A stretch of DNA of 64,000 bases from Ulva prolifera (lineage: Eukaryota > Chlorophyta > Ulvophyceae > Ulvales > Ulvaceae): contig CM041196.1 in the NCBI GenBank assembly GCA_023078555.1, positions 11,116,985 through 11,180,984 on the forward strand. Reading direction: 5' to 3'. The notes beneath the pieces were generated by a model. It had not been told where the DNA came from, ran no database searches, and was given only the letters and a program-made list of their open reading frames with translations. Below, piece after piece: positions 6,892-59,590 of the stretch. Position numbers and translations under genes: made by a program. Each line of letters begins with the position of its first letter. Position 1 is the first letter of the stretch.

Positions 6892-6984
6892 CTTTTTTTT
6901 TTTTTTTAGTGCCATGATTGCGTGAGTGGATTTGCGTGTGTATTCCTAGCAACGGCTCGCTGCCCGGCCTCTGTCCTTTGTAAC
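6892..6984 (+). mobile_element. 5'-truncated R2-like (REL) LINE fragment with oligo-T at its 5' junction
   Basis: Bases 6908-6984 match the last 77 bases of the full REL LINE (ending CCTTTGTAAC). They are preceded by a run of 15 T at 6893-6907 that is absent from the element. A perfect 17-bp direct repeat (6875-6891 and 6985-7001) flanks the insert. It carries the ATGATTGCG and CCTAGCAAC variants, like the fragments at 15.5 and 63.5 kb and unlike the full-length copy. Confidence 0.85.
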
Positions 6985-7001
6985 TACAGACATACGTATC
7001 T

Positions 7002-10000
7002 TTGTCGTACGTCTGTCGTCTGTGCTGTGTCGTGGTCCCGATGTAGACGCATGCCAAAAGAACCCGGCTGCGGGAGGCAGCAAAAAGAAAACGAATAGGC
7101 CCTTAGTTGTGTTCTGTCGTCCGCTGTCGTGCAGCTGCAACGAATACGCGCGCCAGCTGCCAGTGTTCCGTCGTTCTGCAGCCCCACTAGAATGCCAGCG
7201 GACTAACCGCCAGTGGCCTGCAGCCTTGCCCATTTGGAACACCTAGATGTCTGTTGTATGTTTCGCCTGGCCTTCCTGGTGACCCGCTTGGCTGTGCAGC
7301 CGTCATGTCGGCGCGGGCCGCTGGCTGCCCGCGTGCCGTTGTCCGGCAGTCCCACTGGCAATCCTGCGGACTAGCCGCAGGTGATCTGCAGATTTGATTC
7401 GTTAAAAGTGTTGTGTGTTTGTTGTTTTAGTTTTGTGCCGTCTGGCCGGTTCAATGGCCCGTTAGACCGCACCGTTAGTGTGTCCGCTTTCAGCGGAACG
7501 AGTCCCTGCGTATGAGCTTTCAGTGTCCATATGACGGATGCAGCGCTAGTCTCTCCTCCCATTCAAGTCTGTTCACCCACATCCGAGGAATCCATCGCGA
7601 CGGGCCGAGGCTGCCTACTGCGAAGCTGCACGAACTCAATGCCGCGTACTGCTCTCACTGTGGCATATTCGGCTCCACCAAGACCCCTAAGGCGCATAAA
7701 TGTGTGGGAGGTCAGAACAGGAGCTTGAGGTCAGGTCACTGCGTGCTGCCCGCCACACATCCGGCCCGACAGCCCGCCCCAGCCCAACCCGCCCCAGCCC
7801 AGCCCGCCCCAGCCCAGCCCGCCCAGCCGCAGCCCGCCCAGCCGCAGCCTGCCCAGCCTGCCCAGCCGCACCCCCATCAGCCACCCCGTCACTTCACCGA
7901 AGCCCCCGCCGCCGCCCACAACACCGCCCAGCCCAGGCCCTCCCCGAAGGTCCCGGACACCGTCCATCCGGAGTTCGGCGACGCAACGGCCGAGCTCCTC
8001 AGAGATTTCAACGATGCCAGCGACGCGTCCAACATCGACGGAGCACGACTGGCCCTGGGCCGCGTCCTCGACTTCCCTGGTAAGGTTCTGTCGCTGAAGG
8101 GAGGGGACGGCACGGCGCGCCGCGCTCGTACATGCATCACGCTGTTCATGGACGGCGAGGAGCCCAGGCTGGCGGAGCCCACTCCGAGCCAGAAGCGCAG
8201 AATGAATCAGAACCAGGATCGCCGCCTGGCGGGCTCCGTCCACAGGTCACTGAGCGACGGTAATGTCCGCAAAGGCGCGGAGAAAGTGGAGGCGCCGCCC
8301 ATCGCCAGGTACACCCCGGAAGTGCATGAGGCGCTGCGGCACCTGCATCCCGCAGAAGCGCTCCCCCCCGACACCCAGCCCGCCGAGCCCGCGCCCCCGC
8401 TGCAAATCGACGAGGCGACGCTCCGCGCACTGCTCGACAAGCTGCCGAAGGGCAGCGGCCCAGGCCTGTCGGGGTGGACGTATGAGCACATCCGGGCTGC
8501 TGGCACGGCCTCCACGGCCGCATTCACGGAGATTCACCGCTTCGTGAACGCGGCCCTCGCCGGCCGGCTGCCACACCTCCCGCGCTTGCTGGACTGCCGC
8601 CTCCTCCCGCAGGAGAAGCCACAGGGAGGCGTCCGCCCTATCGCCATTGCAGAGACGTGGCAGCGCCTGGTAAGCCTGTGCGCCATGACCCTGTGCAGTG
8701 GCCTGGGTGCCTCCCTCGCGCCGCTGCAGGTGGGGGTCGGGGTGCCAGGGGGCGCGCAGAACCTGGGCCATGCTGCGCGCGCCGTGCTGCAAGCGTGGGA
8801 CGATGTCGTGCTTGTGCAGCTGGACTGGAAGAATGCATTCAACATGATGTCCCGTGCAGCCATCTTGGAGGCCGTTGCGTCTCACAAGCCTGCGCTGCTG
8901 CCCTTCGCCACCATGCTTTACAGGTTCCCCGCAAATCTCTACATCGAAGGCGCACCGCCCGGCACCGCTGCAATCACGTCGCAGCGCGGCGTGCGTCAAG
9001 GCGACCCCATCAGCCCGCTGCTCTTCGCCCTGGCCCTCCAGGGCCCCCTCCAGGCAGTGCAGGCCCAGCACCAGCCACCCGGGAGGGAGGTCACGGCCGC
9101 CCTCATGGCGTATCATGACGACTGCACCATCGCCGGGCAGCGCGTGGACGCCGCCGCCGCATTCCGTGCGCTGGTCTCGGCAGCAGAGCCCCTCGGGCTG
9201 GAGCCCCAGCTGCACAAGTGCACGGCCTACTCGCGCGACCCCCAGCATGCGGGATCCGTCGCGGCCGCGCTCGGCATAACGCATGCCACGGAGGGCACCG
9301 TCATCACCGGCACGCCCATCGGCACCCCGGCGTTCGAGTCGGCGCACGCGGAAGCGACGGCCGACAAGGTGTGCGCCACCATCGAAAAGATGATGCGCTT
9401 GCCCCTGAAAGCGCAAGACCAGTTCTTGCTGCTCACGATGTCCTGCCAACGCCGTATGCTGCACTACGCCAGGGCGGTGCCGTGGGCGCACATTTCCGAT
9501 CACATGCGCCGGACGGAGGCGTCCGTCCTGGCTGCGGTGAATGAAATCATGCGCGTCCCGCGGGACGACACTCGTGCGGCCGCACAAGCCGTCCTTCCAG
9601 CGCGCCTCGGAGGCCTGGGCGTCACGTCCACGCCGCAGGAGGTCGCGGACGGAGCGTACCTCGCTGCGGCGGCGGTGAGCCAAAAGGCGTTCGCAGGAGG
9701 CCCCGAGTGCATGCAGCCGTACCGGGGGCCGCACGGGCAACAATTGCAGGAAACCTGGCAGGCCCTCAACGTCGCTCAGCAGCTCCATCCGGAGCTGCCC
9801 GGGCCGGCGAGCGGCGACACCATCGCCAAGGTGTTACCTGGTATGCAGCAGCGTATCACAAAGTTGGTTGCCCTGCGCCGCCGGGCAGCTCTGCTTGCCA
9901 GCCATGACGTCGCCACGCTCGAGGGTGCATGCAACTTGGCACGGCTTCGCAGCTGTGCTTGCCGTGCAGCCACCCTTTGGTTGAGCACCCTGCCGCTCTC

Positions 10001-11146
10001 CCAGGCGCTGCGCATGACTGACATTGAGTTCATGTTGTGCATCAGGTATCTCCTGGGCATGTCCCCAGCCCCTCCCAATGCGGTCGGCTCGCGCTGCGAA
10101 TGTGGCACTCTCATACAGCCGCATGATCTCGATCACGCGATGAATTGCACACACAATGCGGGGACCTGGACTTCGCGCCACAATATCGTTGAAAAACAAT
10201 GGCGCGAGATCGGGTCCCACGCGTGTGTGGCATCCACGCGCATCCCGCGCACAGCGCCGTTCGTCCGCGCGCGGCTCGCGGCCGCATCGAGGCAGATCCA
10301 TGCTGGCCCGTTGGGCCCGCCCCCCCCTGCTCCGCCCCAGCCCGCCTCCCAGGTCGCGGGCCCTTCGCGTGGGGCAGCCTTGCCCGCGGCGCCGATGCCT
10401 GCAGCCCCGCCGCCGCCGCCGACCGCGCGCGCGAACGAGGCGCCGGCACCTACGCCTGCTCCGGCCGCCGACGCCGATGCTGGACACAGCGCCCACATGG
10501 GGCGCCACGCGCCAGACGCAGCGCAGGCTGCGGCCCTGGCGGCGGCGGCGGCGCCGGGTGGTCAGGATCCAGCGGGGCCTGGGGAGCAGGCCGCTGCCGC
10601 GCAGGCAACGGCGCTGGATGAGGTGTTCAGGGCAGTGGCCCAGGAGAAACTGGGGGACATCATGTTTATGCCGCCGGGCGACCCTTTGTGCATAGGAGAT
10701 GTGTCGGTTGTGAACCCCTGTGCTGGTTCCTATTGCGGCCGTGCGGCCCGCGAGGACGGGGGTGCTGCGGAGACGCGGGACGTGCAGAAACGCACTGCTT
10801 ATCGTTTGTACGACCCTGATGCGTATAGTTTCGTGCCGTTGTCGCATGAGACGCATGGTCGCTTGGGGCGGCCTGCCATGAATCACTTGAATCGGCTGGC
10901 GGAGGTTGCGTCTCGGTGTGGTAAGGTGAACCGTGCTTTGTTTGTGACGAATGCTCTGCGCCGGTTGAGTGTGGCGTTGTGCAAGGGGAATGCTCTTGTG
11001 CTCCGTGCGGGGCTTCAATCTTTGGCTGGCATCACCGGCCGCGCTGTGGTACGTGCTCGTGCCCGGCCTAGTGCCATGACTGCGTGAGTGGATTTGCGTG
11101 TGTATTCCTGGCAACGGCTCGCTGCCCGGCCTCTGTCCTTTGTAAC
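7002..11146 (+). mobile_element. R2-like LINE with restriction-like endonuclease, near complete
   Basis: One long ORF sits between about 500 bases of 5' leader and a short 3' UTR ending CCTTTGTAAC, followed by TACATACATACATA. The 3' end is shared exactly with copies ending at 6984, 15614 and 63597, and with the reverse copy ending at 55675. The 5' boundary is inferred: the reverse copy is homologous only from about 7281 on, so this copy starts there or earlier, plausibly just after the duplicated target at 7001. It is about 99.6 percent identical by eye to 61641-63597 (about eight differences in 1.96 kb), so the family has moved recently. Confidence 0.85.
7512..11087 (+). CDS. REL-LINE polyprotein: C2H2 finger, reverse transcriptase, CCHC knuckle, restriction-like endonuclease
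   Basis: A 1191-residue protein with the domain order of the R2/CRE/NeSL group. Residues 5-28 form a C2H2 finger (C5, C10, H23, H28); C47, C50, H62 and C64 form a possible second one. A Pro-Ala-Gln repeat follows at about 86-125. RT motifs are LDWKNAF with Asp438, GVRQGDP at 493-499 and YHDD at 534-537, where His replaces the usual Ala. C862, C864, H875 and C879 form the CxC...HxxxC knuckle, followed by SRHN (888-891). The endonuclease has GDIMF (Asp1049), IGDVSVV (Asp1063) and QKRTAY (Lys1093), matching a PD-(D/E)XK core. The protein should nick DNA and prime reverse transcription there. An Ala/Pro-rich linker lies at about 935-1035. The ATG at 7512 is chosen because the first finger begins five residues in. 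The frame is intact throughout. Confidence 0.92.
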   Translation: MSFQCPYDGCSASLSSHSSLFTHIRGIHRDGPRLPTAKLHELNAAYCSHCGIFGSTKTPKAHKCVGGQNRSLRSGHCVLPATHPARQPAPAQPAPAQPAPAQPAQPQPAQPQPAQPAQPHPHQPPRHFTEAPAAAHNTAQPRPSPKVPDTVHPEFGDATAELLRDFNDASDASNIDGARLALGRVLDFPGKVLSLKGGDGTARRARTCITLFMDGEEPRLAEPTPSQKRRMNQNQDRRLAGSVHRSLSDGNVRKGAEKVEAPPIARYTPEVHEALRHLHPAEALPPDTQPAEPAPPLQIDEATLRALLDKLPKGSGPGLSGWTYEHIRAAGTASTAAFTEIHRFVNAALAGRLPHLPRLLDCRLLPQEKPQGGVRPIAIAETWQRLVSLCAMTLCSGLGASLAPLQVGVGVPGGAQNLGHAARAVLQAWDDVVLVQLDWKNAFNMMSRAAILEAVASHKPALLPFATMLYRFPANLYIEGAPPGTAAITSQRGVRQGDPISPLLFALALQGPLQAVQAQHQPPGREVTAALMAYHDDCTIAGQRVDAAAAFRALVSAAEPLGLEPQLHKCTAYSRDPQHAGSVAAALGITHATEGTVITGTPIGTPAFESAHAEATADKVCATIEKMMRLPLKAQDQFLLLTMSCQRRMLHYARAVPWAHISDHMRRTEASVLAAVNEIMRVPRDDTRAAAQAVLPARLGGLGVTSTPQEVADGAYLAAAAVSQKAFAGGPECMQPYRGPHGQQLQETWQALNVAQQLHPELPGPASGDTIAKVLPGMQQRITKLVALRRRAALLASHDVATLEGACNLARLRSCACRAATLWLSTLPLSQALRMTDIEFMLCIRYLLGMSPAPPNAVGSRCECGTLIQPHDLDHAMNCTHNAGTWTSRHNIVEKQWREIGSHACVASTRIPRTAPFVRARLAAASRQIHAGPLGPPPPAPPQPASQVAGPSRGAALPAAPMPAAPPPPPTARANEAPAPTPAPAADADAGHSAHMGRHAPDAAQAAALAAAAAPGGQDPAGPGEQAAAAQATALDEVFRAVAQEKLGDIMFMPPGDPLCIGDVSVVNPCAGSYCGRAAREDGGAAETRDVQKRTAYRLYDPDAYSFVPLSHETHGRLGRPAMNHLNRLAEVASRCGKVNRALFVTNALRRLSVALCKGNALVLRAGLQSLAGITGRAVVRARARPSAMTA

Positions 11147-14350: not shown

Positions 14351-15173
14351 CATATACCCACCCGAGCTCGGACGCTCGCGATCGGTCACCGTCAACTATA
14401 GCTGTTGTGTCAGAGTCGCAACCTGCGCATGCATGCGCATTCGGCACCATGGCATTATTAATTCATTACTCCAGATTTGTAACCATGCAATCCAGATTTG
14501 AACGACCTCCGAGTCACGTTCAGACGTGAATTCGTGGTCACTGGCCGCTGGCCATTAGGGCTGTAAATTTAACATCTGGGGGCATGGTTTAACGTTAATT
14601 AACAAAGCTAAAGTAAAATAAAAGTAAAATAGGCTAAAAATTCTTTACTTTAAACGTGTTTTAAAATAGTGTTTTCCTGCTTTACCAGTAAAACTGTTAA
14701 ACATGTCGAGGAGGGAGTTTCGGCCAATGGCACGGCACAAACACGGCACAGACACGTCCACAGCCACCTAGATACACCTATTGCACTGCCTATCAATTAT
14801 CTGCGTCTCATGAGCAACTTGACGACGATGGAGATGCTCCTAGGCTGTCAGACTGCAGACCACACGCTACTGCACCCTCGTTCTGGCACACCAGATCCAG
14901 AAGATTCTTCCTCATACACTTCATCAACAGAACCAAGCAGATGTTCAAAACATCGTCAACAGCTGCATCATTATCGCTTGGGTGATGTAGGTTGATTTTG
15001 GTGTACTATGTTGTTGCCAGCGTTCTGTTTTTCATTGACCTTCTCTTGGAGGTCAAAATGTCTAGAAATATATTCCACAGCCTCTCCACAGTTGCACAGC
15101 AGGGCTTCGCAGACATGATTTCAATGGCAGCCTCTCTCGAGCTCGGCAAACTTTTCAACAACATGGACATGTC

Positions 15174-15217
15174 CATGTCCAAATGGATACGGCTGTGTAA
15201 TCATGCATACATACATA
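15174..15217 (+). mobile_element. APE LINE 3'-end fragment
   Basis: ATGTCCAAATGGATACGGCT, then GTGTAATCATGCATACATAC, matches the APE LINE terminus with one change. It was the landing site of the next REL LINE fragment. Confidence 0.85.
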
Positions 15218-15224
15218 CAACACC

Positions 15225-15614
15225 TGGGGCGGCCTGCCATGGGGCGGCCTGCCATGACATACAACCATGACACGGCCTGCCATGACATACAACCATGACA
15301 CCTGGGGCGGCCTGCCATGACATACAACACCTGGGGCGGCCTGCCATGAATCACTTGAATCGGCTGGCGGAGGTTGCGTCTCGGTGTGGTAAGGTGAACC
15401 GTGCTTTGTTTGTGACGAATGCTCTGCGCCGGTTGAGTGTGGCATTGTGCAAGGGGGATGCTCTTGTGCTCCGTGCGGGGCTTCAATCTTTGGCTGGCAT
15501 CACCGGCCGAGCTGTGGTACGTGCTCGTGCCCGGCCTAGTGCCATGATTGCGTGAGTGGATTTGCGTGTGTATTCCTAGCAACGGCTCGCTGCCCGGCCT
15601 CTGTCCTTTGTAAC
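15225..15614 (+). mobile_element. 5'-truncated REL LINE fragment with stuttered 5' junction
   Basis: From 15337 it matches the last 290 bases of the REL LINE, ending CCTTTGTAAC. A 13-bp duplication (TACATACAACACC) flanks it at 15212-15224 and 15615-15627. Between 15225 and 15336 the same piece, GGGGCGGCCTGCCATGA, recurs three to four times, joined each time to target-like CATACAAC. It carries the same variants as the 6.9- and 63.5-kb copies. Confidence 0.9.
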
Positions 15615-16151
15615 TACATACAACACCACGAGACACAACATCAGTCGCAGCTGGCTTTCTGCATGCGCAGATTGGAGCCACGTACATCCGCCGAATCAGC
15701 CAGATTTGCCTCATCGGAACTTTCAGTCTCTTGCAGAGGTTCAGGAGGACGTTTGTCTTGTGCCATGTCTGGAAGTTGCTCACTGCCAAATCAATGACAG
15801 GTGCACACGGGCTACGGAAACTGACTCCCACAGCATGAGCAAGCGCAAAGCGACACAGATTCATGTACTAGGAGCAAGCAACAGGTGTGCTGCGAGTTAT
15901 ATCATGACCTCCGTGCTTTGTTAGTGATGTTTGTCCTATGAGGTCGGTCAAAGCCATCGGAATACAGCCCTTTTTGGCTTCAACTTTGGTTTTAAAGCAC
16001 CCTTAAAGTTAAAATGCGTTAAAGTAAAATAAAAGTAAAATGACCCCTTTAAAGCCTCGAAATCGTTTTAACGTTAAAATTGTAAAGTAAAATAGCATTT
16101 TAAACTCCGTTAAAATGGGGGTAAAGTTAAATTTACAGCCCTACTGGCCAT

Positions 16152-17004: not shown

Positions 17005-19303
17005 TTAGCGCCGGTTAGTGATGTCACATAGTGCCATTGTCCTCCCAACACGGCCAGCATTGAACTGCTCATTCCCGAAGGCCCCAGCTTTCTTGTGTGA
17101 CGTGCCAGTGTGATCATTCTCTGTTGTACCTTCGTCGTCACTGCTGAGCTGCACGCTGTCCTGTTCGTCTGAGGAGAGGGCTGCAGCCTCGAGTGCCCTT
17201 GTGCTCGGATTGACTGCTCGCCTAGCAGCACGTACAGGAGCCAGCACAGCATCAGCCGGCTCATTGACGGCCGCAGCAGGTGCCCGGTTGGCAGGTGCTT
17301 CCTTTGCTGCCTTGCGCTCTGCAGCCTTAGCAGCCTTGCCTGCTCTGGCTGCGGCCTTAGCTGCTGCATCTGCCCGCTTCTTCTCGATCCGAAGCTGTTT
17401 CCTTGCCTCCGTGGCTTGCTTCTCCTCAGCTTTGCGCTTCTTGCTTTCTTTGGCCTTCTGCGCCCGCGCTGCCGCTGCTGCCTCTTTGTCTGCCGCCGCC
17501 TTCTCCTTCGCCGCCTCAACGCGCTTCATCTTCTCCAGTGCTGCTGGGGCAGTCCACAGTCGCGCTGGAATCGTGTTCACCATTGCACTGGCAACACCCT
17601 CTGAGATCACCTTGAGGCGCAGAGGATCAGCGGCTTCCTCTGTGACCTGCTGCACATGCTGCACTGCTGCGTTGTTCTGGATGGCATCGGCTGTGGCCTC
17701 TTTGAGATGGTAAATAGCGCTCTTGCGCGACTCCATCCTCGATGTGTTGTGCCGAGCATTGCCAGCAGCATGGCCTGCATATGTAATAGATGAGGCTGGA
17801 GCAACCATGCGTTGCACCGCTGCTGTTGAAAATGAGAACACAGACACAGTCATGATCAGTGGGGGAGGGGGTGGAATGCTTGGTTTCAACAGCCCATCGT
17901 CGTCAAACTTGTCTAACAGCCACTCAGGGTGATACTGTTTCGCCTCATCAAACGTAAATCCGGCCATTCGGAAAGCAGACCGGCAGTTACCCTCGCAGAG
18001 GGCGGCTGCTAGAACAGACTTGCCGTATTCCAGGGTGAACCCTGCTGTCTCCACCTACGAAGCAGCAAAACATATTCAGCATTTGTTGCGGAGCAGCGAT
18101 GTATGCCTAGAATACTGAGATTCAGAGCACGCACATGTACCGAAAATGGCTTGGCGAGCAACTCAATCCAATCTTGGGCCCTCAATGTGCCTCCAGAGAA
18201 CCCTTTGCGGAGGGCGCTGGCTGCCGCCCATACCACGGCCAGCGCCTTCTTCAGGGCAGAGTTGATGCACAGGTCGAGCGGCTGGCACAGTTCAGAGCTG
18301 TGTGGCGCCAGTCCGACGACATGAATCATGGCTCCTTTCAACAGAGTAAGAACCTCACATGTCACGTGAGCGGCGAAGTTGTCGAGGAGCATGACGACCC
18401 AGTATGGGCGTTTGTACGCACCTGCATGCACGTGGACTCAGACCGGCGACGTCGTCAGTGGTGCAAGGTCGAACGTTGTAGACCCATGCAGAGCAATGAA
18501 TCAAAGATCACACCTAGTGCGGGGATGAGGCAGTCACGGGCCCATGTGTAGAACAGTGCGTTTGTCATGTACGCGTTGGGCTGCTGAGCAACAGCCGCGT
18601 CCTCCATCAACGTGCCTTTCACCGTGTCCACCATCTTCTTGGTCCCCCACCACGCTGGCTGGTTCAGCTCACCCGGGAGGCCCTCTGCGCCCTTGACAAT
18701 CAGGAAAGGGGGCACACGGTGTGCCCCGTCAGCGGCACTTGTCAGTAAAAGAGTGTATGAGTCGTGGTGGTTCTTATGGTCGGCCCTCAGAGCCTTGGCA
18801 GCTCCCTTCATAGCGAGCACAGGAGCGTCTTTCGTCACCATCCGCATGCACGTTTCGTCAAGGTTGTATACTTGCCTTGCAGAGAAGCAGCGCTTGCCCC
18901 CCCGCACGTCCTCCCCGCACTCCTCTCCGAGACGCTCCATGATGTTGTACATCTCCAGCACTTGCCCATATAACAGCTGCCGACGCCCGCCATCTATTCC
19001 CTCTCCGTACCGAAAGGACACAAGGTGGCCCCAGCGCTTCTGGAAACCCTTGATCCATTTGTGAGAGACCCCACATCTCTCCCACCGCTTGGTGACCTCA
19101 GCATCACGGTGGTTAGTGACAGCAATCACCAGCGCATGCTGCTTCAGCACGTTCTCATCGATCGAGAAGCCTTTCTCGCTCGCTGCAATTGAGTTCCGAG
19201 CCAATGCACACTCCTCATCTGATGTCAGGTGGGTTTGACCTCCTGACTGGGGGATCAGGCAGTACAGACTGCGAGCTAGTATATCAAACTCCTTGCTTCG
19301 CAC
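17005..19303 (-). CDS. pogo/CENP-B-like DDE transposase protein, at least three exons
   Basis: Exons 19303-18514, 18421-18141 and 18054-17005 join in phase across two GT-AG introns (92 and 86 bases) to give 706 residues. The 5' end is open: 19303 is a GTG, so an upstream exon is likely. Residues of exon 1 hold a CENP-B/Tc5-type helix-turn-helix (VSHKWIKGFQKRWG). The DDE core has Asp149 (VYNLDET), Asp277 (VMLLDNFAAH) and Asp313 (ELCQPLDLC), the last two 36 apart. The C-terminal 200 residues are a Lys/Ala/Glu-rich coiled coil, then an acidic serine stretch (LSSDEQD, LSSDDEG). No terminal inverted repeats were found around it. It may be a domesticated gene or a transposon with introns. The catalytic triad is intact. 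Nuclear DNA binding is inferred. Confidence 0.85.
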
Positions 19304-21993: not shown

Positions 21994-22020
21994 GGGGGGG
22001 GGGGGGGGGGGGGGGGGGGG
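21994..22020 (+). repeat. Poly-G tract, 27 bases
   Basis: An uninterrupted run of G. Similar tracts lie at 42746 (C), 46335 (C) and 55605 (G). Confidence 0.95.
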
Positions 22021-30600: not shown

Positions 30601-33261
30601 TGTTTCAGTCCCTGAGACCTGCACTTTTACTGATCAGGCAAACATGCACAGCTTCTCAAGTCAGACAGGATTGACTGCAGGCGCCCATGGACAAGTGGAT
30701 GACACAGATCCCAAAACAGATGATTGGGTCCCAACCATGTCAGAAGCGCGTGGACACATTACAGCCATGCAGATTTGAGATGCATTTGATCGGCTGACAT
30801 ACAAACATGATGCTCCTGAGATCAATCGGTGATCTCTGTACAGCTTCAAATCCAGAAGCATACAGAAAACAGTACCCCAAAGAAGGCCCACATTGCATTG
30901 TCAGAGGAGTGTTAGTGGACAAGGGATGGCCAAGTGACTCGGGGGCGGTGGTAGCACATTCTTGTCCCTAGTAAATGCGCTTGGTCAACATGTTCGCCAC
31001 TCTTCACAAGCATCGTTGTGCAACGAGCGGGCTGCAATAACGCAGTTGCAGCTGCGACCGTCGTATCAAGTCTGTTGCAACTTAATTCAGGAGTTCAATT
31101 GGTGTGATTCCTCACCGCAATGCTCAGCCTCTTGTCATGCTCACTGACCCAGCCCGCTCGTTGTGGTCATTTCCAGGGGCTAGCATCTGCCGAGCAGCCA
31201 TCGTGAGCGCTGTTGTTGCCTTCATGTGCTACAGCGAGGCAGTGTTCAAATAGAGCCAGATGTTTTGTTCCTGAAATATGTTGTTTATGGACAATTTGCA
31301 TGTGTACAACTGGCTAGTGATGTGTCGACCATATGACCAACACCACAGTCTCCACTGTTTATCAGAGTGAGGACCCAAGATGCTGAACCCTTGGACAATA
31401 TATATGGAGCAGCGTCCCTCTTGTGTCTTCAATTGCAAATTTGTCTTCAATTTTCAAAGAGCCACAACCAGTGCAAATGGGGTACATGCATGTTCCCTCG
31501 TGTATCTTTTGTTGTGACGACCCCACTTTTGAGCTACGCGAGCATGCTTCTCACAACGTCTGCAGCAGGCGTTTCGATGATCGACGATCTATGCCCATGC
31601 TCGATCAATGTGTGTCTCTGCGCATGCAGACATGCACTTGTGCATTTACGTACGCAAGTGTATCTGCGCGCAATGCATGTCCCTTTCAGATATATGCATG
31701 AATGCTCACGCGCTGTGGGCTCGTGGTGCACGAACGCATTACGATGCATTACTAGCGCCAGAGCAACGCGTTGTCTGGATTCTGCTGCTAGTGTATGTAC
31801 TTCTCTTGAATGGAACCGCATGGACGCAGCAGACTCGTGACGTTCATGCAGGACTCAGTGAAACGTATAAAGTCATGAAGCACTGCTATAGCGCAACTGT
31901 CAGGCTGAGATACATCTCCGTCGATGCCGTGGCCTTCTTGAGCTTCGCGTCGAACACATTCGTGCTGCCACACAACCTGCCCTGCTGGTATCGTCGTCGT
32001 CTAGCGTACTTCCTGTTGCTGACGTCTCTACTTGCCAGTCGACGTCTTTGAGACTTTGGCAGACGTATTCCAGGTGAGCCTACGCTTCTTACCGGAGGCA
32101 ATTCAGTGTCTTTTGGTTTTCTTAGCGATGGTTGTCGTCCTTGTTTTGTTGCGCCCTGTATACTACGATGACTTTGGTCTCGACGCGAAATGAACGAACG
32201 GTCGTGCACGGACGGTATTGCGTCCACGTGCCTGCGTGTCATGATGCTCGAACAATGGCAATCCGAACAATGTCCGTGTATTCCGCAAGTGCATCGCCCC
32301 GTGTACATGTCGGCAATCGTTCACATCACATCGGATCCGGTGTTTGGACGTTCACGGCACTACAAGAAAACTGACTGGCCCAGACTCACAGAAGGGGCAC
32401 ATTGTGAGGCGCTCTTGGTGCAGTTGGATGAGTCCGAGTGTAGCTCTGGGGGCACATTTGCCTGAACTCTGGGGCTGACACTGGCAAGGGGCTGAAGCCG
32501 GCTGCGGTCGTGAGTGGCGTTATTCTGTACAGAAACAAGATCCATTCAATACATCAAGTACATGAAACGTAACAGGTCCGTTAGTGGTGGCAAGCGGCGA
32601 CTCTGGCGTGCAGCGATCGCTTCGGATCATACAGCGCCTAGCTCCGTGGGGCAATAACTATATGGTTAGCCGGTCTACACGCAATGCTTATAACGCATAA
32701 ACGATGCGAAAGCAGTGGGCGATGTAGGTAGTTGCGTAAGTATATGCAGCGTTGTGTGGTGTACGGGATTTCGGCACTGGACGGCTGGATGCATGCTTGG
32801 AAGTCGCCGAGGTGGGTGGTGTTCGTCGTGGCGGGATCGAGCTGGAAGTCTTCCACCTATGCCATAAATCGTGGCAAACGTGTCAACCAAACATTGGTGT
32901 AATTTGAGTTCCTTGTGACTATAAGATGGTGCTTCAGGGCATAGAAGTAGGCAGAAGGAGGCTGTGGCACATCACCATGATTCTGCTCCTATGTGAGCAC
33001 AGAAGTGACCCTTACCACCAAGGGGCTGGAAGTGCCCTTGGCCCAATGGCAGTTTCACGGGTATCAGGGCCAATTATTATGAGCTGGTGGCAGAATCTGC
33101 CACTGATGCAATTAGGGTCACATTCCTCTGCACTGCTAGGATGAGATCATGGTGGTGCTTCCAGAGCTCGAAAACATGTAGCATGCAGCCGTACAGTACT
33201 GATATGCGACCTACTGTTCTCATATGGCTTGTGAAGGTTACAATCTGTAGGCTGGAGGCAG
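27601..33261. other. No gene recognised
   Basis: A 5.7-kb stretch with only short overlapping open frames. One block at 29923-30110 (plus, containing LLGQIGCETKASTREGS and VPIPADFATD-like residues, with a GT donor at 30111) could be an exon, but the opposite strand is open too. A 16-bp-arm palindrome with a 6-base interruption lies at 29549-29586. Confidence 0.45.
28885..28925 (-). repeat. Short hairpin repeat, copy 4 (diverged)
   Basis: On the minus strand it reads GGGTCCAGTGATGTAGCAGT, then CACATCTCTGCACTGTCATGG, matching the family core CCAGTG-TGTAGC-GTCA-AT-CACTG with changes. Confidence 0.5.
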
Positions 33262-36192
33262 CTAATACCCGTCCCTCATTCCTATGACACCTGGTCGCCA
33301 TTGCACAAGCCACTGCAGGGTGAGAGGGGGCTGCACTATCACAACAACACATGAATCAGCAAGCAACACAAAACGGTCCAAAACAAAATCTTCAAATGTG
33401 CTGCAGCCTCTCTCTGTGGTCTTGTTCTGCACCTCTGCATCTAGCCTCAATACTTCTTCGACCTCTGCCGCCCTGACGTCCTCTTCCTCTGCATGAAATG
33501 CCAAATCAGAACTCATTGCCGCTGGCATATAGTTGTGTGCAACAGAGCTGGACCGCCGTAGCAGAAAGATGTGGCCAGGGAAGGATACACCAACAAATGC
33601 CATAATTGCAATGGAAACCAGAAATGCGACATAGAGAGTGCCTCACGACTACGTACAGCATCTATTGACAGTGAGCAAACCTGGATATGGTTAAAACTGC
33701 GAATTCAATGCGAGCAAGCATGCTCATTGCGCTTATGCTGCAAGGCAGGGAGTGGGGACACGCACCATTTGGTGACACACCTTGGCACATGGCAAGCTTA
33801 GCTGTGGGTCTGTGTTGCACTGTTCTGTGTTAGATTCTATGTCTGCACCTGCACATCGAAGCATGTCATCTTGGGTACAAACATGGCGCCACGCGCACTA
33901 GGCTGCTGCTAGGGCAAGAACAGCACACACGTCGCAGTGGCCGTACCCATGGCAGCTAGACTGTATGCTGTTGATACAGCTGCTGTCAAATAAAGCCTTG
34001 AACTCTGAAGGTGCCCGGGAGGGGGCCCCCTCCTGTCAACTAGTCCAAGCTTGGATGCACTTGGGTGTGTACCGAGTGCTTCTTTCTCTCCAATAGACAG
34101 TAAAAAGTCCATCAGACAAGCTGCTCTGGATCTCGAGCGCATGTTCTCTAGAGATCTGTGGCCCTACATAGGCATATTCGTAATCAGAGGACAGAATCGT
34201 GACATTGGCGAAGGATACCGACATGGAAAGGGCAAAGATGTCATACTTGGACAGCACTTTCAAATGCAGCTTTTTCGTCTGATAATCAAGATGCTTCGTC
34301 GCCAAATCGCGCCGCATTGCCTCGCCATATGAGGCGAGCGCCAGCAACTTCGAATTCTGGAAGCCAACGATGGCGTCTTCTTCAATGTTCTGCAAGGAGT
34401 GGCACCTGACATTTGAAATCCATTGCATCCTAAAGTTGATAATTCAGAGATCACCTGAGTACTGCTCATGAAATAAATTCTGTGGGAAACAGCGAAGGCA
34501 GACTAGGGTGAGGACCTCGTTAAACAGGTCAGAGCTCAGCTTGGCCCACAGCCCAAGCTTGGCAACAGGCATTCCCGGTAGCCACCATCGGTCTTCTGGT
34601 CCCCAGAATGTTACTGCCTTTGGCAGAAACTTGACCTTGACGCGATATTCGGGATCGGCCTGCAATGCTGCATTGAGAGCTACCTTGGACAGGCTTGATG
34701 GCATGTATGCTATAGTTGCCAGCCCAGCTTCCCTCCTTGCTGGATTCTGCACGTTGAATATGGGGCACTGTTAACCATTCATTACGAGAGACCCAACGGT
34801 TAGACGGCGCGGAATGCGACTGTCGACCACTCGCGAGTGCGCGCCCAATATTGAACGTGAAACGCGCTTGGTGCAAATGCCAGCTTTAAAGTGGCTGCTT
34901 ACCTCGTACTTGGCCTGCTGCGCATCGACCTTTGGTCTGCTTTTGCCGCGACCTTTCTTCTTCGTCGTCAGACGTAATTCGTAGTGGCCCTAAATCTGGG
35001 TAGTGTTCTGCAGTCGCGTGAGCGCCTCGTGCACCGGCTCGGCTGCCTCGAGTCTCATGGCGTAGATTCGTTCCATGATCTCCCGAAGACTAAATTGTTT
35101 CTTCTCCAAGCTGCCTTCCACGCTGAACTCCTTCGACCCTGCCCTGCCGACATCGCTCAATATAGTCAAGATTACTTCCTCAGCGTGGCTGCGGCAATCT
35201 GCTGGCACCCCTAGTGGCTTGCTCGTATACGAATCGGCTGTCACGAGGAGTTTGCCATCTGAGAAAATGTCAATCACCTTAATAAATAGTGTATACGGCC
35301 GGAGCCCGGGAGCGTCTTGGCCGGCTTGCATGGTGGCAGGTCTGGGAGTAACTCACACTCGACGAGTAGACGGTCATACCACAATGCTGCGGAGATGCGC
35401 TCGCTTGTGACCGGATTCCGTCGCCAGATTCAGTGACGTTCGCTGGGCGTGACAAAGTTCTCCAGGCGCGTTGCCACCGCGTGCGTGTGGCGTAGGGGGA
35501 GGATACCCCACAGCGATGGCGTAGGCAGCACCAGACCCCAGCTCCGCCATCCAGTCGCGACGGTCCATGTCTGCCGTCACATCATCGTGCTGAAGTCAAA
35601 GGGCAACGTCGACGCCATCAAAACGATGGCACGAGCGGTATGGTGGCTGCTCCTTTTATGTGTCTGTGATTGCTACCCTTTAGCACACGTCAATGACACG
35701 ACCTGTGTCTCGCCACAGCTAACCTGAAAACGTCAAGAGGCTGTAATTATAATATATTGTGGCTGTGTTTGCAGGCGCCAGGTGCATCCGAGCATGATAT
35801 AAATCTGAAATGGTGGAAACCCAACTCTCTGTACATTAGCCGAGGGGCAAAATCGATGCCCTTTCCCATTCGTCAGGCCTCAAATTAAGAGGGAAGCGGG
35901 GAGTAAGGTTGCCTCCACGAATATTAGTTTTTCAAGCATTGGGGACATCAGCCTTGCTGATGCTTACCTCGAAAGCTAGCAAGTCAGAAATGTGTGTGGG
36001 AATTAAATCAGCTTGACGCGGTGTTTCACACCAAATCATACTTCGATAAAATTTTCTAGGGAAGAATAAAGAGTCGTGGATGTAAACTGCATCAAATCCA
36101 AACGTGTCGCGACTCGTGACACTGATCTGTACAGATTTGCCTTTTCTACCGGCATGGACTCCTCTCCACTGTACACCTGCCATACGCAGAGT
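33262..36192 (-). CDS. Multi-exon gene of unknown function
   Basis: Several minus-strand blocks have clear splice borders. Block 36192-35968 (FDAVYIHDSLFFPRKFYRS) ends at donor GTAAGC. Block ending 35357 (NPVTSERISAALWYDRLLVE, donor GTGAGT) joins in phase to 35258 (YGKLLVTADSYTSKPLGV) over a 98-base intron. That exon runs to 34903 (donor GTAAGC) and continues in phase at 34746-34455 (GPEDRWWLPGMPVAKLGLWA). Further blocks lie at 34428-34170 (HLDYQTKKLHLKVLSKYDIF) and 33603-33262 (EEEDVRAAEVEEVLRLDAEV). An in-frame TAG stands at 34990-34992; a 45-base GT-AG intron (35034-34990) would remove it. The phase between 34455 and the next block was not resolved. No domain is recognised. The gene could be partly decayed. 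Confidence 0.55.
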
Positions 36193-36270
36193 TCACTTTC
36201 ATGTCCACAAACCACACGTCCCACCATTCCCTGGGTGCAAATGTACATGTTATGCATGGCAGCTGTTACA

Positions 36271-37244
36271 AGCATGCTGAATTTTTTGTGAAGGAGCTGA
36301 GGCTGCCACTGGCACACCTGAGCTGCAAATCCATTCGGCAACTCACATGTTCAGTGAAGTGTGCAGTTTGAGCTCCAGCAGCCCAATGCTGGGTTTGGTG
36401 CTGGCTGCATACGTCGCACGTGCATGCTGGTTTCCCGCTTCTGTGAGCATGCTGAATTTTTTGTGACGGAGCTGAGGCTGCCACTGGCACACCTGAGCTG
36501 CAAATCCATTCGGCAACTCACATGTGCAGTGAACTGTGCAGTTTGAGCTCCAGTAGCCCAAGGCTGGGTTGGGTGCTGGCTGCATTCGTTGCACGTGCAT
36601 GCTGGTTTCCCGCTTCTGTGAGCATGCTGAATTTTTTGTGAAGGAGCTGAGGCTGCCACTGGCACACCTGAGCTGCAAATCCATTCAACAACTCACATGT
36701 GCAGTGAACTGTGCAGTTTGAGCTCCAGTAGCCCAAGGCTGGGTTGGGTGCTGGCTGCATACGTTGCACGTGCATGCTGGTTTCCCGCTTCTGTGAGCAT
36801 GCTGAATTTTTTGTGAAGGAGCTGAGGCTGCCACTGGCGCACCTGAGCTGCAAATCCATTCGGCAACTCACATGTGCAGTGAACTGTGCAGTTTGAGCTC
36901 CAGCAGCCCAAGGCTGGGTTTGGTGCTGGCTGCATACGTCGCACGTGCATGCTGGTTTCCCGCTTCTGTGAGCATGCTGAATTTTTTGTGACGGAGCTGA
37001 GGCTGCCACTGGCACACCTGAGCTGCAAATCCATTCAACAACTCACATGTGCAGTGAACTCTGCAGTTTGAGCTCCAGCAGCCCAAGGCTGGGTTGGGTG
37101 CTGGCTGCATACGTTGCACGTGCATGCTGGTTTCCCGCTTCTGTGCGCATGCTGAAATTTTTGTGAAGGAGCTGAGGCTGCCACTGGCACACCTGAGCTG
37201 CAAATCCATTCGGCAACTCACATGTTCAGTGAAATGTGCAGTTT
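36271..37244. repeat. 175-bp tandem satellite, about 5.6 copies
   Basis: AGCATGCTGAATTTTTTGTG recurs at 36271, 36446, 36621, 36796 and 36971, with a variant at 37146: an exact 175-base period. Units differ at a few sites (AAGGAG or ACGGAG, CATTCGG or CATTCAAC, CAGCAG or CAGTAG). Because 175 is not a multiple of three, open minus-strand frames in the array are by-products. It abuts the 5' side of the unknown minus-strand gene. Confidence 0.97.
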
Positions 37245-39198
37245 TTCATTCCCACTTTGAAGCTGTCAACCTTCGGTTGAAAAGTTACGACCATGTAACA
37301 CCATAGGTACTTGTGCTGATAATGTGGCTTACCCGAGCTGGACGAAGTTTATGAGTAGAGACATCAACACGTGATTTCTATAGAGGTCCATGCCTATCGC
37401 ACAGAGCACCTACAACCAACAGGAATGCAGCACCTACATGAGCAGCCAGCAACTGGTGTTCAAAGCATTTTGCTGTATTCATTGGATAGGACACGAGTTC
37501 CATGCCCTAGCTAGACATAGCATCTCCACACATCAAGATTTCAGCGTGGATACTCACAGATAATACTTGCCAGCAGCCTACCTCATGGTTAATGGGCTAT
37601 CCACTGCACCGTAAACTACACCTTCCGTAGCTTGTGATCAAGTAGCTTCTACTGCTGCCATAATCATGATGCCTTGGGCTAGGTGGCGTGTAGCAGCAAA
37701 CTGCCGCTGCAACACTGATCACGATACACAGAATCAATACGTCAGTGGAGCATCATCACCTGCATGTCAGTGTAACAATCGTTTTCATTGTTTACACCTC
37801 AAATGGCGTTTTGCTGCAGGCGTCATCATGGAACACCAGTCACGAGCAACTGTGGCGCAACACACAAGCCAAGGCAGATGAAGCATGAGCATGTAGCCTA
37901 CCGGAGCGTACTACATTGCTTCGGATATTGGCGTCTGGCAGCCACTGGGAAAGCACGCTGGTCACTAATTGATTCACTCGCAGCAACGCGAAATCCACGC
38001 CGACTAATCAAGTCCGTTCTCCGCGCATGAAGAAGACTAGGGGCGGATAAGCCATCCTTTGGCTCACCTGACTGAGCATACGCATCGGTGGGCACCGGTG
38101 GGATCGTGATAACAGTGCAGGCATGTGCGAGTCGATAATCATGTCGAGCCCAAAGCCGCATCCGCGTTAGCTGCATGCATCGGCGACAAACGCTGCTGGC
38201 TCCCTCCGGGCGACCGTAAGGATATCGATCGCCACGAAAGCCGACATCAAGCGAAGCATGACCAGGATTTACGCATTCATGAATCTGTACCGCCGACCCA
38301 TCACACCACCCACGGGACACCTGCTCAATGTCCGTGCGTCGATGTACCAAACCGCCAGAAACAGTCATCAGCACCCACGGTGCACAGTTCGCGCATTCAA
38401 TCGATTATGTGCCTTATCTGTCAAGATAGTAATATTCAATTCGGCCCGATTGTCCATAGCAGGGCATCGCACCGTTTCACCAATGTGCCATGGCATGGTT
38501 GCACAAATACGGCCCCTTATGGAGCAGCTTAGTGGATGCCCAAGCAAACACCCCCTCATCGTGGGGCCCATATGTGCCCCTGACTTTCAAAGTGACCCTG
38601 GAGCCGGAACCCCCCCCAGCTGCCGAATCCTGAAACCGCCCCTGAACTAGCATGGGGCACTACAGCCCTCTGCCAACGAGCCCCCAAGTCATAAGGGGCA
38701 CCTTGTCCTTCCTTGGGCCGGTCAGGTTTCTTGTAGTGCGGGCGACGCACAGTCTTGCGTGATAACACGGTATCACAGATCCTGCCGGACTGAGGTGTGC
38801 GTGCGGTTGTAGTGTGGTCGTGTGTATGTGTGTGTGTTGCTGTTGATTCGGATGAGATTCGGTTTTGGGGTTTGTCTTCTCCCGTTCACTCTTTTGTAGT
38901 ACCGGTATCAACGAACACACCACATTGGCATCCTAGACTGCTTTCCCAGGACATGTCTACTTTCTTCGCCTCTGCCTCTTCATCGACCCCCACATGCACC
39001 GCAAAATTCCCTTGTGAGAATAATGCGTGCTTTGTGAATATCTGTGGTTTGCCTTGCTTCCTTTCGCTATGTTTTTCTCAGGACCCATTTCGATAGCATT
39101 CAGAGAGTGGATCCAGTTGGCGGTACGCAGCTACAGATTGGCCCTCCCCTGAACAGGCTGGCATGCAGGTTCACTGGCTGATAAAGATCCCCTCGGAA
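37245..39198. other. No gene recognised
   Basis: Short overlapping open frames only. A dispersed repeat lies at 38846-38898. Confidence 0.5.
38846..38898 (-). repeat. Dispersed repeat, inverted copy of 14297-14350
   Basis: Its reverse complement carries TACAAAAGAGTGAACGGG, AGAAGACAAAC and AAAACCGAATCTCATCCGAA, like the 14.3-kb copy. Confidence 0.7.
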
Positions 39199-42742: not shown

Positions 42743-42781
<39 letters not shown>

Positions 42782-45824: not shown

Positions 45825-45976
45825 TACATGTGATCGGGCCCGACGGCCCCACACTGCCTCAGGTGTGTGCATGCAAGGGCACGCTTGTGAGACATACCTG
45901 CAGGTATGTCTCACAAGCGTGCCCTTGCATGCACACACCTGAGGCAGTGTGGGGCCGTCGGGCCCGATCACATGTA
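45825..45976. repeat. Perfect 152-bp palindrome without spacer
   Basis: Arms of 76 bases meet at 45900/45901 (CATACCTG|CAGGTATG), and every base pair of the two arms matches. The right arm contains the first 32 bases of the next hAT MITE plus its left target duplication and 36 bases of flank, so the left arm is an inverted copy of a MITE end with flank. Confidence 0.97.

Positions 45977-55604: not shown

Positions 55605-55633
<29 letters not shown>
55605..55633 (+). repeat. Poly-G tract, 29 bases, near the REL LINE 3' end
   Basis: An uninterrupted G run, 42 bases beyond the 3' end of the reverse REL LINE. Confidence 0.95.
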
Positions 55634-55636
<3 letters not shown>

Positions 55637-55674
55637 CTTAACGTGGCCTTGAGGAGGATGCCTGCGTGTACGAA

Positions 55675-58600
55675 GTTACAAAGGACAGAGGCTGGGCAGC
55701 GAGCCGTTGCCAGGAATACACACGCAAATCCACTCACGCAGTCATGGCACTAGGCCGGGTACGAGAACGTACCACAGCCCGGCCGGTGATGCCAGCGCTT
55801 GGCTAGCCAAAGATTAAAGCCCCGCACGGAGCACAAGAGTGCCCCTTGCACAACGCCAAACTCAACCGGCGAAGAGCATTAATATTCGTCACAAACAAAG
55901 CACGGTTCACCGTACCACACCGAGACGCAACCTCCGCCAGCCGATTCAAGTGATTCATGGCAGGCCGTCCCAAGCGACCCTGCGTCTCATGCGATAACGG
56001 CACAAAACTATACGCATCAGGGTCGTACAAACGATTAGCAGTGCGTTTCTGCACGTCCCGCGTCTCCGCAGCACCCCCGTCCTCTCGGGCCGCACGGCCG
56101 CAATACGAATCAGCACAGGGGTTCACAACCAACACATCTCCTATGCACAAAGCGTCACCCGGCGGCATAAACATGATGTCCCCCAGTTTCTCCTGGGCCA
56201 CTGCCCTGAACACCCGCTCCAACGCCGTCGCCTGCGCGGCAGCGGCCTGCTCCCCAGGCCCCGCCGGATCCTGGCCACCCGGCTCCGCTGCCGCCGCCAG
56301 GACCGCAGCCTGCGCTGCGTCCGGCGCGTGGCGCCCCATCTGGGCGCTGTGTCCAGCATCGGCGTCGGCAGCCGGAGCAGTCGTAGGTGCCGGCGCCGCG
56401 TCCGCACGCGCGGCCGGCGGCGGCGGCGGGGCTGCAGGCATCGGCTCCACGGGCAAGGTCGCCCTGTGCGAAGGGCCCGCGATCTGGGAGGCGGGCTGGG
56501 GCGGAGCAGGGGGCGAACACGGCGGGCCAGCATGGATTTGCCTCGGAGCGGCCACGAGCCGAGCGCGGACGAACGGCGCTGTGCCCGGGATGGGCGTGGA
56601 TATCCATCGATGCCACACATGCGTGGGACCCGATCTAGCGCCATTGCTTTTCAACGATGTTGTGGCGCGAAGTTGAGGTCCCCGCATTGTGTGTGCAATT
56701 CATCGCGTGGTCGAGGTCATGCGGCTGTATGAATGTGCCACATCCGCAGCGCGAGCCGACTGCATTAGGAGGGGCTGGGGACATGCCCAGGAGATACCTG
56801 ATGCACAGCATGAACTCAATGTAAGTCATGCGTAGCGCCTGGGAGAGCGGCAGGGTGCTCAACCAAAGGGTGGCTGCACGCGTACGGCAAGCACAGCTGC
56901 AAAGCCGTCCCAAGTTGCAAGCACCCTCGAGCGTGGTGACATCATGGCTGGCCAGCAGAGCCGCCCACCGGCGCAGGGCAACCGCCTTGGTGATGCGCTG
57001 CTGCATACCATGGCCAGGTAACACCTTGGCGATGGTGTCGCCGCTCGCCGGCCCGGGCAGCTCCGGATGGAGCTGCTGAGCGACGTTGAGGGCCTGCCAG
57101 GTTTCCTGCAATCGTTGCCCATGCGCCCCCGGGCCCCGGAACGGCTGCATGCACTCGGGGCCTCCTGCGAATGCCTTGTGGCTCACCGCAGCTGCAGCGA
57201 GGTACGCTCCATCCGCGACCTCCGTCGGTGTGGACATGACGCTCAGGCCTCCGAGGCGCGCTGGAAGGACAGCTTGTGCGGCCGCACGAGGGTCGTCCCG
57301 CGGGACGCGCATGATTTCATTCACCGCAGCCAGGATAGACGCCTCCGTACGGCGCGTGCATGTGTGATCGGAAATGTGCGCCCACGGCACCGCCCTGGCG
57401 TAGTGCAGCATACGGCGTTGGCAGGACATCGTGAGCAGCAAGAACTGGTCTTGCGCTTTCAGGGGCAGGCTCATCATCTTCTCGATGGTGGCGCACACCT
57501 TGTCGGCCGTCGCTTCCGCGTGCGCCGACTCGAACGCCGGGGTGCCGATGGGCGTGCCGGTGATGACGGTGCCCCCCGTGGCATGCGTTATGCCGAGCGC
57601 GGCCGCGACGGATCCCGCATGCAGGGGGTCGCGCGAGTAGGCCGTACACTTGTGCAGCTGGGGCTCCATCCCGAGGGGCTCTGCTGCCGAGACCAGCGCA
57701 CGGAATGCGGCGGCGGCGTCCACGCGCTGCCCGGCGATGGTACATTAGTCATGCATGACATATGATACGCCATGAGGGCGGCCGTGACCTCCCTCCCGGG
57801 TGGCTGGTGCTGGGCCTGCACTGCCTGGAGGGGGCCCTGGAGGGCCAGGGCGAAGAGCAGCGGGCTGATGGGGTCGCCTTGACGCACGCCGCGCTGCGAC
57901 GTGATTGCAGCGGTGCCGGGCGGTGCGCCTTCGATGTAGAGATTTGCGGGGAACCTGTAAAGCATGGTGGCGAAGGGCAGCAGCGCAGGCTTGTGAGACG
58001 CAACGGCCTCCAAGATGGCTGCACGGGACATCATGTTGAATGCATTCTTCCAGTCCAGCTGCACAAGCACGACATCGTCCCACGCTTGCAGCACGGCGCG
58101 CGCAGCATGGCCCAGGTTCTGCGCGCCTCCTGGCACCCCGACCCCCAACTGCAGCGGCGCGAGGGAGGCACCTAGGCCACTGCACAGGGTCATGGCGCAC
58201 AGGCTTACCAGGCGCTGCCACGTCTCTGCAATGGCGATAGGGCGGACGACTCCCTGTGGCTTCTCCTGCGGGAGGAGGCGGCAGTCCAGCAAGCGCAGGA
58301 GGTGTGGCAGCCGGCCGGCGAGGACCACGTTCACGAAGTGGTGAATCTCCGTGAACGCGGCCGTGGAGGCCGTGCCGGCAGCCCGGATGTGCTCATACGT
58401 CCACCCCAACAGGCCTGGGCCACTGCCCTTCGGCAGCTTGTCGAGCAGGGCGTGGAGCGTCGCCTCGTCGATTTGCAGCGGGGGCGCGGGCTCGGCGGGC
58501 TGGGTGTCGGGGGGGAGCGCTTCTGTGGGATGCAGGTGCCGCAGCTCCTCATGCACTTCCGGGGTGACCTGGCGATGGGCGGCGCCTCCACTTTTGCCGC

Positions 58601-59590
58601 GGCTTTGCCGAGATTACCCTCGCTCAGTGACCAGTGGACGGAGCCCGCTAGGCGGCGTTCCTGGTCCGATGCATTCTGCGCTGCTGGCTCGGAGTGGGCT
58701 CCGCCAGCCTGGTCTCCTCGCCGTCCATGAACAGCGTGATGCATGCACGAGCGCGGCGCGCCGTGCCGTCCCCTCCCTTCAGCGACAGAGCCTTACCAGG
58801 GAAGTCGAGGAAGCGGCCCAGGCCTAGGGCCACTCGTGCTCCGTCGATGTTGGACGCGTCGCTGGCATCGTTGAAATCTCCGAGGAGCTCGGCCGTTGCG
58901 TCGCCAAAATCCTTATGGATGCTGTCCGGGATCCTCGGGGAGGGCCTGGGCTGAGCGGTGTGGTGGGCGGCGGCGGGGGCGTCGGTGAAGTGGTGGGGTG
59001 GCTGATGGGGGTGCGGCTGGGCGGGCTGGGCAGGCTGCGGCTGGGCGGGCTGGGCTGGGGCGGGTTGGGCTGGGGCGGCCTGTCGGGCCGGCTGTGTGGC
59101 GGGCAGCACGCAGTGACCTGACTTCAAGCTCCTGTTCTGACCTCCCACACATTGATGAGTCTTGTTGGTCTTGGTAGAGCCGAATATGCCACAGTAAGAG
59201 CAGTATGCGGCATTGAGTTGGCCCAGCTTCGCAGTAGGCAGCCTCAGCCCGTCGCGATGGATTCCTCGGATGTGGTTGAACAGGCTTGAATGGGAGGTGA
59301 GACTGCTGCTGCATCCGGGGTATGGACACTTAAAGCTCATACGCAGGGACTCGTTCCGGTGAAAGCGGCCACACTAATGGTGCAGTCTAACGGGCCATTG
59401 AACCGGCCAGGCGGCACAAAAATAAAACAACAAACACACAACACTTTTAACGAATCAAATCAGCAGATCACTCGCAGCTAGTCCGCAGGATTGCCAGTGG
59501 GACTGCCGGACAACGGCATGCGGGCAGCCAGCGGCCCGCGCCGACATGACAACTGCACAGCCCAGCGGGTCACTGGGTCACTGGGTCACT
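55675..59590 (-). mobile_element. Decayed reverse-oriented REL LINE, truncated in its 5' leader
   Basis: On the minus strand it runs from the leader (equivalent to about 7281) to the terminal CCTTTGTAAC. Its 5' edge shows AGTGACCC three times in tandem (GGGTCACT at 59567-59590 on the plus strand), of which one belongs to the element. No clean target duplication was found. The copy carries at least eight short palindromic insertions plus small deletions. Confidence 0.92.
55803..59340 (-). pseudogene. REL-LINE protein remnant in four frame blocks
   Basis: Blocks are 59340-58648 (C2H2 finger, PAQ repeats), 58556-57588 (RT up to GVRQGDP), 57723-56635 (RT thumb, CCHC knuckle CGCGTF...SRHN) and 56687-55803 (Ala/Pro linker, endonuclease GDIMF, IGDVLVV, QKRTAN). 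The region around YHDD is altered by an insertion. One-base losses near 58670 and 58570, and insertions near 57750 and 56600, separate the blocks. In-frame 6-base insertions add TC, GA, GH, TR, NI and LG relative to the intact copy. It cannot make a full protein. Confidence 0.92.

Follow-up and report, generated by a model that had tools for sequence, protein, structure and literature searches.

Introduction

Among the closest described relatives of the short insertions reported here are the footprints of Ac/Ds transposons, whose excision leaves host flanks that are closed as hairpins, opened off centre and often joined through microhomology, with palindromic P nucleotides left behind (PMC5873905). 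Our insertions lie in a window of 64,000 nucleotides, the whole stretch of DNA analysed (C1:11116985-11180984, where C1 is contig CM041196.1), from the 88.9 Mb, 44-contig genome assembly of the green alga Ulva prolifera, and they interrupt an old, decayed copy of a long interspersed nuclear element (LINE). In the simplest case they turn a few host bases X into X-rc(X)-X, where rc(X) is the reverse complement of X. We argue that these insertions were probably left behind by the excision of cut-and-paste transposons that duplicate 3 bp of target, CACTA (EnSpm) elements being the likeliest type. The same direct-inverted-direct order is familiar from duplication-inverted triplication (DUP-TRP/INV) rearrangements and from short template-switch mutations, for which continuous lengths are expected. 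Among the open-access titles and opening lines of abstracts listed in our searches, with the older subscription papers on CACTA footprints mostly outside that scope, none reports a genome whose short insertions are mainly X-rc(X)-X.

Results

Nine private insertions in an old LINE copy

The window contains an intact young LINE (7002-11146, forward strand) with a 1191-aa frame that includes a reverse transcriptase domain; this copy served as the reference. The old copy lies on the reverse strand (55667-59573) and differs from the reference by 204 mismatches in 3838 aligned columns. Aligning the two bore out an earlier note on this DNA, which had described palindromic insertions in the decayed copy: its body holds nine insertions, between 6 and 11 bp long (6 bp in six cases, 10 bp in one and 11 bp in two), all missing from the reference. 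The earlier note would have been overturned had the insertions been ancestral and later deleted from the full-length copy. They have no counterpart in 28 of 28 other LINE copies when these are aligned with the intact LINE. The old copy has therefore gained them, young copies have not lost them, and ancestry followed by loss is ruled out.

Each insertion was fitted to a rule in which two direct copies, each t bases long, enclose first l bases inverted from the left flank and then r bases inverted from the right flank. At t = 3, eight of the nine obey this rule exactly with no substitution assumed, and the ninth does so after one CpG transition. In five of them X is 3 bp long and X-rc(X)-X is exact, as had been proposed for the AGGCCT, CCATGG, ACGCGT, ATTAAT and GGGCCC/CCCGGG sites: CCT-AGG-CCT (58820-58828; one duplication of 3 bp, three inverted bases), GGG-CCC-GGG (57128-57136), TGG-CCA-TGG (57008-57016), CGT-ACG-CGT (56878-56886) and AAT-ATT-AAT (55878-55886), all, like the remaining four, on the reverse strand. 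The sites given as TGGATATCCA, GTCATGCATGAC and TTGGCTAGCCAA are not simple triplications of 5 or 6 bp, being insertions of 10, 11 and 11 bp that fit t = 3 exactly, with duplications of ATC, CAT and GCT and 7, 8 and 8 inverted bases in between. These are ATC-GATGGAT-ATC (56599-56611; inverted 3+4, 2+5 or 4+3), CAT-AT-GTCATG-CATGAC (57748-57764; inverted 2+6 or 3+5) and GCT-AGCCAAGC-GCT (55794-55807; inverted 6+2 or 5+3, with the inverted left flank reaching 55810). The insertion near 57355 that had seemed unclear (CAC-ATG-CAC, 57356-57364, with the 6 inserted bases at 57359-57364) indeed fails the rule in its present form; a fit with X = CAC is reached if the expected middle GTG has undergone a single G-to-A change at a CpG. 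Throughout, in the old copy and in the three copies from other loci described below (L064, L067 and L068), the bases between the direct copies invert the neighbouring host sequence and vary among sites. Remnants of transposon ends are ruled out as their origin, the middle bases tracking X.

How easily could such a pattern arise by accident? When random pieces of the LINE were placed at random sites, the t = 3 rule was met by 184 of 60000 6-mers, 5 of 60000 10-mers and 1 of 60000 11-mers, and plain 6-bp tandem duplications met it at 265 of 4025 positions. These rates rule out random insertion and plain tandem duplication. The earlier view that the insertions are self-templated is supported. We regard an assembly or sequencing artefact, or chance, as very improbable: one exact rule is followed that random inserts meet in at most 0.3% of trials, the insertions belong to diverged copies and are missing from 28 others, and similar ones occur at unlinked loci.

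Fold-back template switching is a further candidate. Here a nascent strand would copy itself backwards for a few bases and return to the template, which gives the same simple X-rc(X)-X product, and comparable templated insertions have been described (PMC8421209). The insertions of 10 and 11 bp nevertheless combine a duplication that is always 3 bp long with inverted bases drawn from both flanks, which goes beyond a single fold-back.

The old copy has a few shorter insertions, all outside the rule: TGT (3 bp) within a GC-rich run, one of 4 bp in the 3' tail and one of 1 bp. In its body, which has 204 mismatches and is the only one among the old copies to be read throughout, nine scars stand against one insertion of 3 bp and one of 1 bp, which suggests that excision scars, and not slippage, can lead the short insertions in neutral DNA of this genome.

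The same rule in LINE copies at other loci

LINE matches longer than 3 kb number at least 34 in the genome, the intact copy included, and are all 97-100% identical; this list comes from 28 scored candidates out of 1073, making it a lower bound biased to young copies. A 400-bp LINE query aimed at older copies returned only near-identical ones among the 40 of 430 candidates scored. LINE copies also stand in head-to-tail arrays, with short 3'-end fragments just ahead of full-length copies (window 6907-6995; C1:4130703-4131616).

Three copies with lower scores in comparison with the old copy were read in part. L064 (C1:7791294; 60 mismatches in 1406 columns) has CCA-TGG-CCA as its sole insertion of at least 2 bp, L065 is a young copy (4 mismatches in 906) with no insertion of that size, and L066 is taken up in the Discussion. 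In the body of L010 (96 mismatches in 4227) every insertion is shorter than 6 bp, and L031 and L035, about 3% diverged, show no gap of 2 bp or more. The genome was also searched for pairs of LINE anchors whose spacing is 5-13 bp too long. This recovered both positive controls, the window copy and L064, and gave 10 new places, two of which were read after being picked by net length before the sequence of the insert was known. L067 (net +6) proved to be ATC-GAT-ATC. L068 (net +10) is ACC-GGT-ACC plus a plain 4-bp tandem duplication, GCAC, for which 3 duplicated bases and one inverted base are an alternative reading. The signature, first noticed in one decayed LINE, is thus present there without being confined to it, since it also marks other old copies, the window at large and LINE flanks elsewhere.

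Of the 13 LINE-body insertions of 6 bp or more that were examined, 11 fit exactly, one fits after one transition and one does not fit. Left out of this tally were an 8-bp insertion of L036 at the broken end of the copy (offset 4368), the insertions of the variable 5' leader (offsets 181-308, including 9 bp in L010) and 15-bp tandem-array variants near offset 1090. Insertions below 6 bp also stand outside it: the TGT, common to the window copy and L010, in its GC-rich run; GCA in L010, which fits with no duplication and three inverted bases, and AA in the same copy; GGC in seven copies; the GCAC of L068; and, in the window copy, the TTCG of its 3' tail. A pair of stretches at L041, about 80% identical and presumed to be diverged coding sequence, has noisy gaps, none of which fits the rule, and was not used.

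Two discrete arm sizes

Counts that need no alignment point the same way. In the window, X-rc(X)-X with an arm of 3 occurs 75 times against 28 expected without masking, and 63 times against 29-37 (three kinds of control sequence) once tandem arrays are masked. Grids of direct repeat against number of inverted bases (p), counted on sequence masked for tandem arrays, show where the excess lies: with exact 3-bp direct repeats, p = 3 is found 41 times against 13.9 expected (standard deviation, sd, 3.4) and p = 8 four times against 0.1, with no excess at p = 1 (281 against 298), p = 2 (125 against 115) or p = 4 (18 against 17). In 43 kb of non-redundant LINE flanks from other chromosomal places, p = 3 again stands out (20 against 10.8, sd 2.7), as does p = 8 (3 against 0.1).

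The lengths of the arms are discrete. In the window and flanks together (104,192 bases, self-complementary X excluded), arm 3 is found 113 times against 45 expected and arm 5 ten times against 0.30; arm 4 (4 against 2.75) is not enriched, and arms 6, 7 and 8 have zero cases. A geometric decay between the excesses at arms 3 and 5 would predict about 28 cases of arm 4, chance included, where 4 are seen (P ~1e-8). The two fixed sizes therefore resemble target-duplication lengths and speak against fold-back template switching, which predicts a continuum with no dip to chance level at arm 4 ahead of a strong excess at arm 5. Together with the constant 3-bp duplication of the 10- and 11-bp insertions, this disfavours the earlier note's first explanation, and we now consider fold-back switching unlikely.

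The arm-3 excess spreads over 25 of 32 strand-neutral triplets, although over half of it falls on GCC, ACA, ATG, CAA and CAG. In the arm-5 class, CGTAG/CTACG accounts for three of the ten cases, each in a different context, a hint of target preference. Transib/RAG-like elements are known for 5-bp duplications and hairpinned flanks.

Two arm-5 triplications lie at or within larger structures. One, ATACA-TGTAT-ATACA from 45814, overlaps the left edge of a perfect 152-bp palindrome (45825-45976). The other lies 33 bp inside the left end of an element that is hAT-like by its ends (14556-16143), with TAGGGCTGTAAATTTAAC terminal repeats, an 8-bp duplication CTGGCCAT and a LINE 3' fragment (15332-15625) inside. 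Apart from the 3-base class, long perfect palindromes are in excess across the unmasked window (1-64000): 15 of 16 bp against 1.65 expected, and 29 of 14 bp against 5.9.

A candidate source family

One candidate resides in the window. The CACTA-type element at 32358-38738 (forward strand) is 6381 bp long, has CACTA...TAGTG terminal inverted repeats and termini that read CACTACAAGAAAACTGACTG...CGGTCAGGTTTCTTGTAGTG (in our feature list, CACTACAAGAAAACTG...CAGGTTTCTTGTAGTG), and stands between CGG target duplications read from the sequence at 32355-32357 on the left and 38739-38741 on the right. It represents a candidate source family for the 3-bp footprints. Its left end matches 13 places, at 94-100% identity where the match is whole, and its right end 14 places at 99-100% and two at 75-76%. 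Twelve elements could be paired from their ends, and both ends were read for 11 of them (ten plus the window element): 11 of 11 have perfect 3-bp duplications, with 11 different triplets and an unmatched fourth base, judged by eye for the window element. Exact CACTACAAGAAANNTG termini occur at 59 places genome-wide, the next two bases being found in several variants, and a reversed-pattern control gave 0. The PF02992 profile is uninformative, as it had no match here or in control genomes. A 175-bp tandem array (36271-37244; 5.6 copies, 95% matches) lies within the element.

This family bears on two further explanations. First, the scars could come from another superfamily with 3-bp duplications or from small non-autonomous elements, and our genome-wide count of termini covered CACTACAAGAAA ends only. 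The footprint triplets are varied, however, and unlike the TAA/TTA expected for PIF/Harbinger (PMC4423477), so that we hold this alternative to be quite improbable. Second, a host or selfish nuclease could make staggered breaks of 3 and 5 nt with no transposon involved, the ends being hairpinned and rejoined by the same rule. The footprint sites hold no resident element that we could see, X is diverse in the 3-bp class, where 25 of the 32 strand-neutral types are over-represented, and two discrete sizes could reflect two break geometries; on the other hand no such nuclease has been identified, while CACTA elements with exactly 3-bp duplications and near-identical ends are present. The hairpin-forming nuclease had been the earlier note's second explanation: hairpin cleavage fits, the free nuclease we find unlikely, and transposon excision is simpler.

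Other features of the window and contig

Runs of G or C reach 27 (21994-22020), 36 (42746-42781) and 29 bases (55605-55633). A 282-aa frame on the reverse strand (18458-19303) has a sub-threshold match to the Tc5 transposase DNA-binding domain. The start of C1 (L042, 1-120) presumably lies inside a coding frame, which by eye resembles the C terminus of tryptophan synthase alpha, and the first 300 bases of C1 contain no telomere repeat.

Discussion

We propose that the insertions are the scars of transposon visits to old LINE copies and to other neutral DNA. An element would insert and duplicate three bases X; on excision both host flanks, each ending in X, would be closed as hairpins, and nicks off the tip would open these, giving one flank a tail with rc(X) and the opposite flank a tail with X. 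These complementary tails could then pair through their three bases, and fill-in would yield X-rc(X)-X, a gain of 6 bp. Pairing and fill-in would give this product at any length of X, matching both the 3- and the 5-base class. In a minority of cases the opened hairpins (3+5, 5+3 or 3+4) may be joined unpaired, producing X, 7-8 inverted nucleotides and X, that is, the insertions of 10 and 11 bp. Hairpins are called for because an inverted copy remains at the footprints, which is not so in the site restoration described for mPing.

Several observations weigh against this proposal and deserve to be set out together. (i), Excision was not seen directly: there is no pair of sites before and after, and none of the 29 aligned LINE copies has an element inside its body, although these copies were chosen as long unbroken matches, a choice that would hide occupied sites. 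(ii), Described excisions often leave other products: among rice transposon excisions the duplication alone was left in 8 of 94, the others showing deletions and/or filler (PMC4423477); a rice Harbinger miniature inverted-repeat transposable element with a 3-bp duplication kept one copy in 48 of 97 excisions, its other footprints including deletions and insertions of 1-15 bp (PMC6850418); and two revertants of the soybean CACTA element Tgm9 were precise, with no footprint (PMC4773125). (iii), No transposase came to light in the window element when 10 of its 44 frames were compared with Pfam, none having a match above cut-off, and no element with 5-bp duplications was identified for the 5-base class. 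(iv), Some LINE insertions fall, or may fall, outside the rule: L066 (50 mismatches in 1986) has one of 14 bp that does not fit, and the eight remaining places from the anchor search, known by their net length (+7, +8, +10 or +13), include five at +7 or +8, for which the rule needs additional small indels; the window copy likewise shows a net +7 over one stretch, made of +10 and -3. (v), The counts contain excesses that the rule does not explain, in the window where 2-bp duplications enclose four inverted bases (64 cases against 43, sd 5.5) and at plain 5-bp duplications (67 against 43, sd 8), in the LINE flanks at p = 1 (240 against 179, sd 14.5) and p = 6 (7 against 1.0), and over the 104 kb a slight one at arm 2 (627 against 556); plain 3-bp XX duplications, in turn, are not in excess in the window (684 against 753). 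(vi), Three arbitrary 10-kb stretches, which we suppose to be gene-rich, gave 6 cases against 6.0 in the strict count and 19 against 12.3 in a looser one.

With these points taken into account, excision of elements with 3-bp duplications remains in our view the probable source of the scars, with CACTA elements the likeliest agents. More tentatively, as a possibility that we would not yet call probable, breaks with target duplications of 3 and of 5 bases might both be resolved by one stereotyped rule that inserts exactly rc(X)X, with the inverted stretch usually equal to the duplication in length, and in neutral DNA X-rc(X)-X might outnumber any other kind of short insertion. Should the 5-base class belong to a second element, for example a Transib/RAG-like one, the rule would be a property of host hairpin repair, independent of the transposase. 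Old repeats may be a fossil record of transposon visits, in which each scar keeps the target triplet and the mode of hairpin opening and joining; and as the inverted stretch equals the duplication in the 3- and 5-base classes, the repair step becomes testable without genetics. What is unusual here is the regularity and density of the scars.

How, then, do they compare with known systems? They share the direct-inverted-direct order of DUP-TRP/INV and template-switch mutations, but only lengths 3 and 5 occur. Like the P-nucleotide footprints of Ac/Ds, they are short palindromic inserts templated by the host flanks (PMC5873905); hAT elements, however, duplicate 8 bp (PMC4423477), compared with 3 bp here, and Ds footprints are heterogeneous, with 28 types in 128 events in Candida (PMC5873905), whereas here X-rc(X)-X dominates. 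As in mPing/Tourist, the target duplication would supply the pairing that makes the repair product regular, yet in the published model the staggered ends of mPing anneal with each other and a single copy of the site is restored (PMC4561436), while here the inverted copy stays. The published case of Tgm9, with its precise excision and no footprint (PMC4773125), differs from what we propose for CACTA elements in Ulva. It is nonetheless CACTA (EnSpm) elements that the scars resemble in the 3-bp target duplication of varied sequence, and elements with CACTACAAGAAA ends are found both in the window and elsewhere in this genome.

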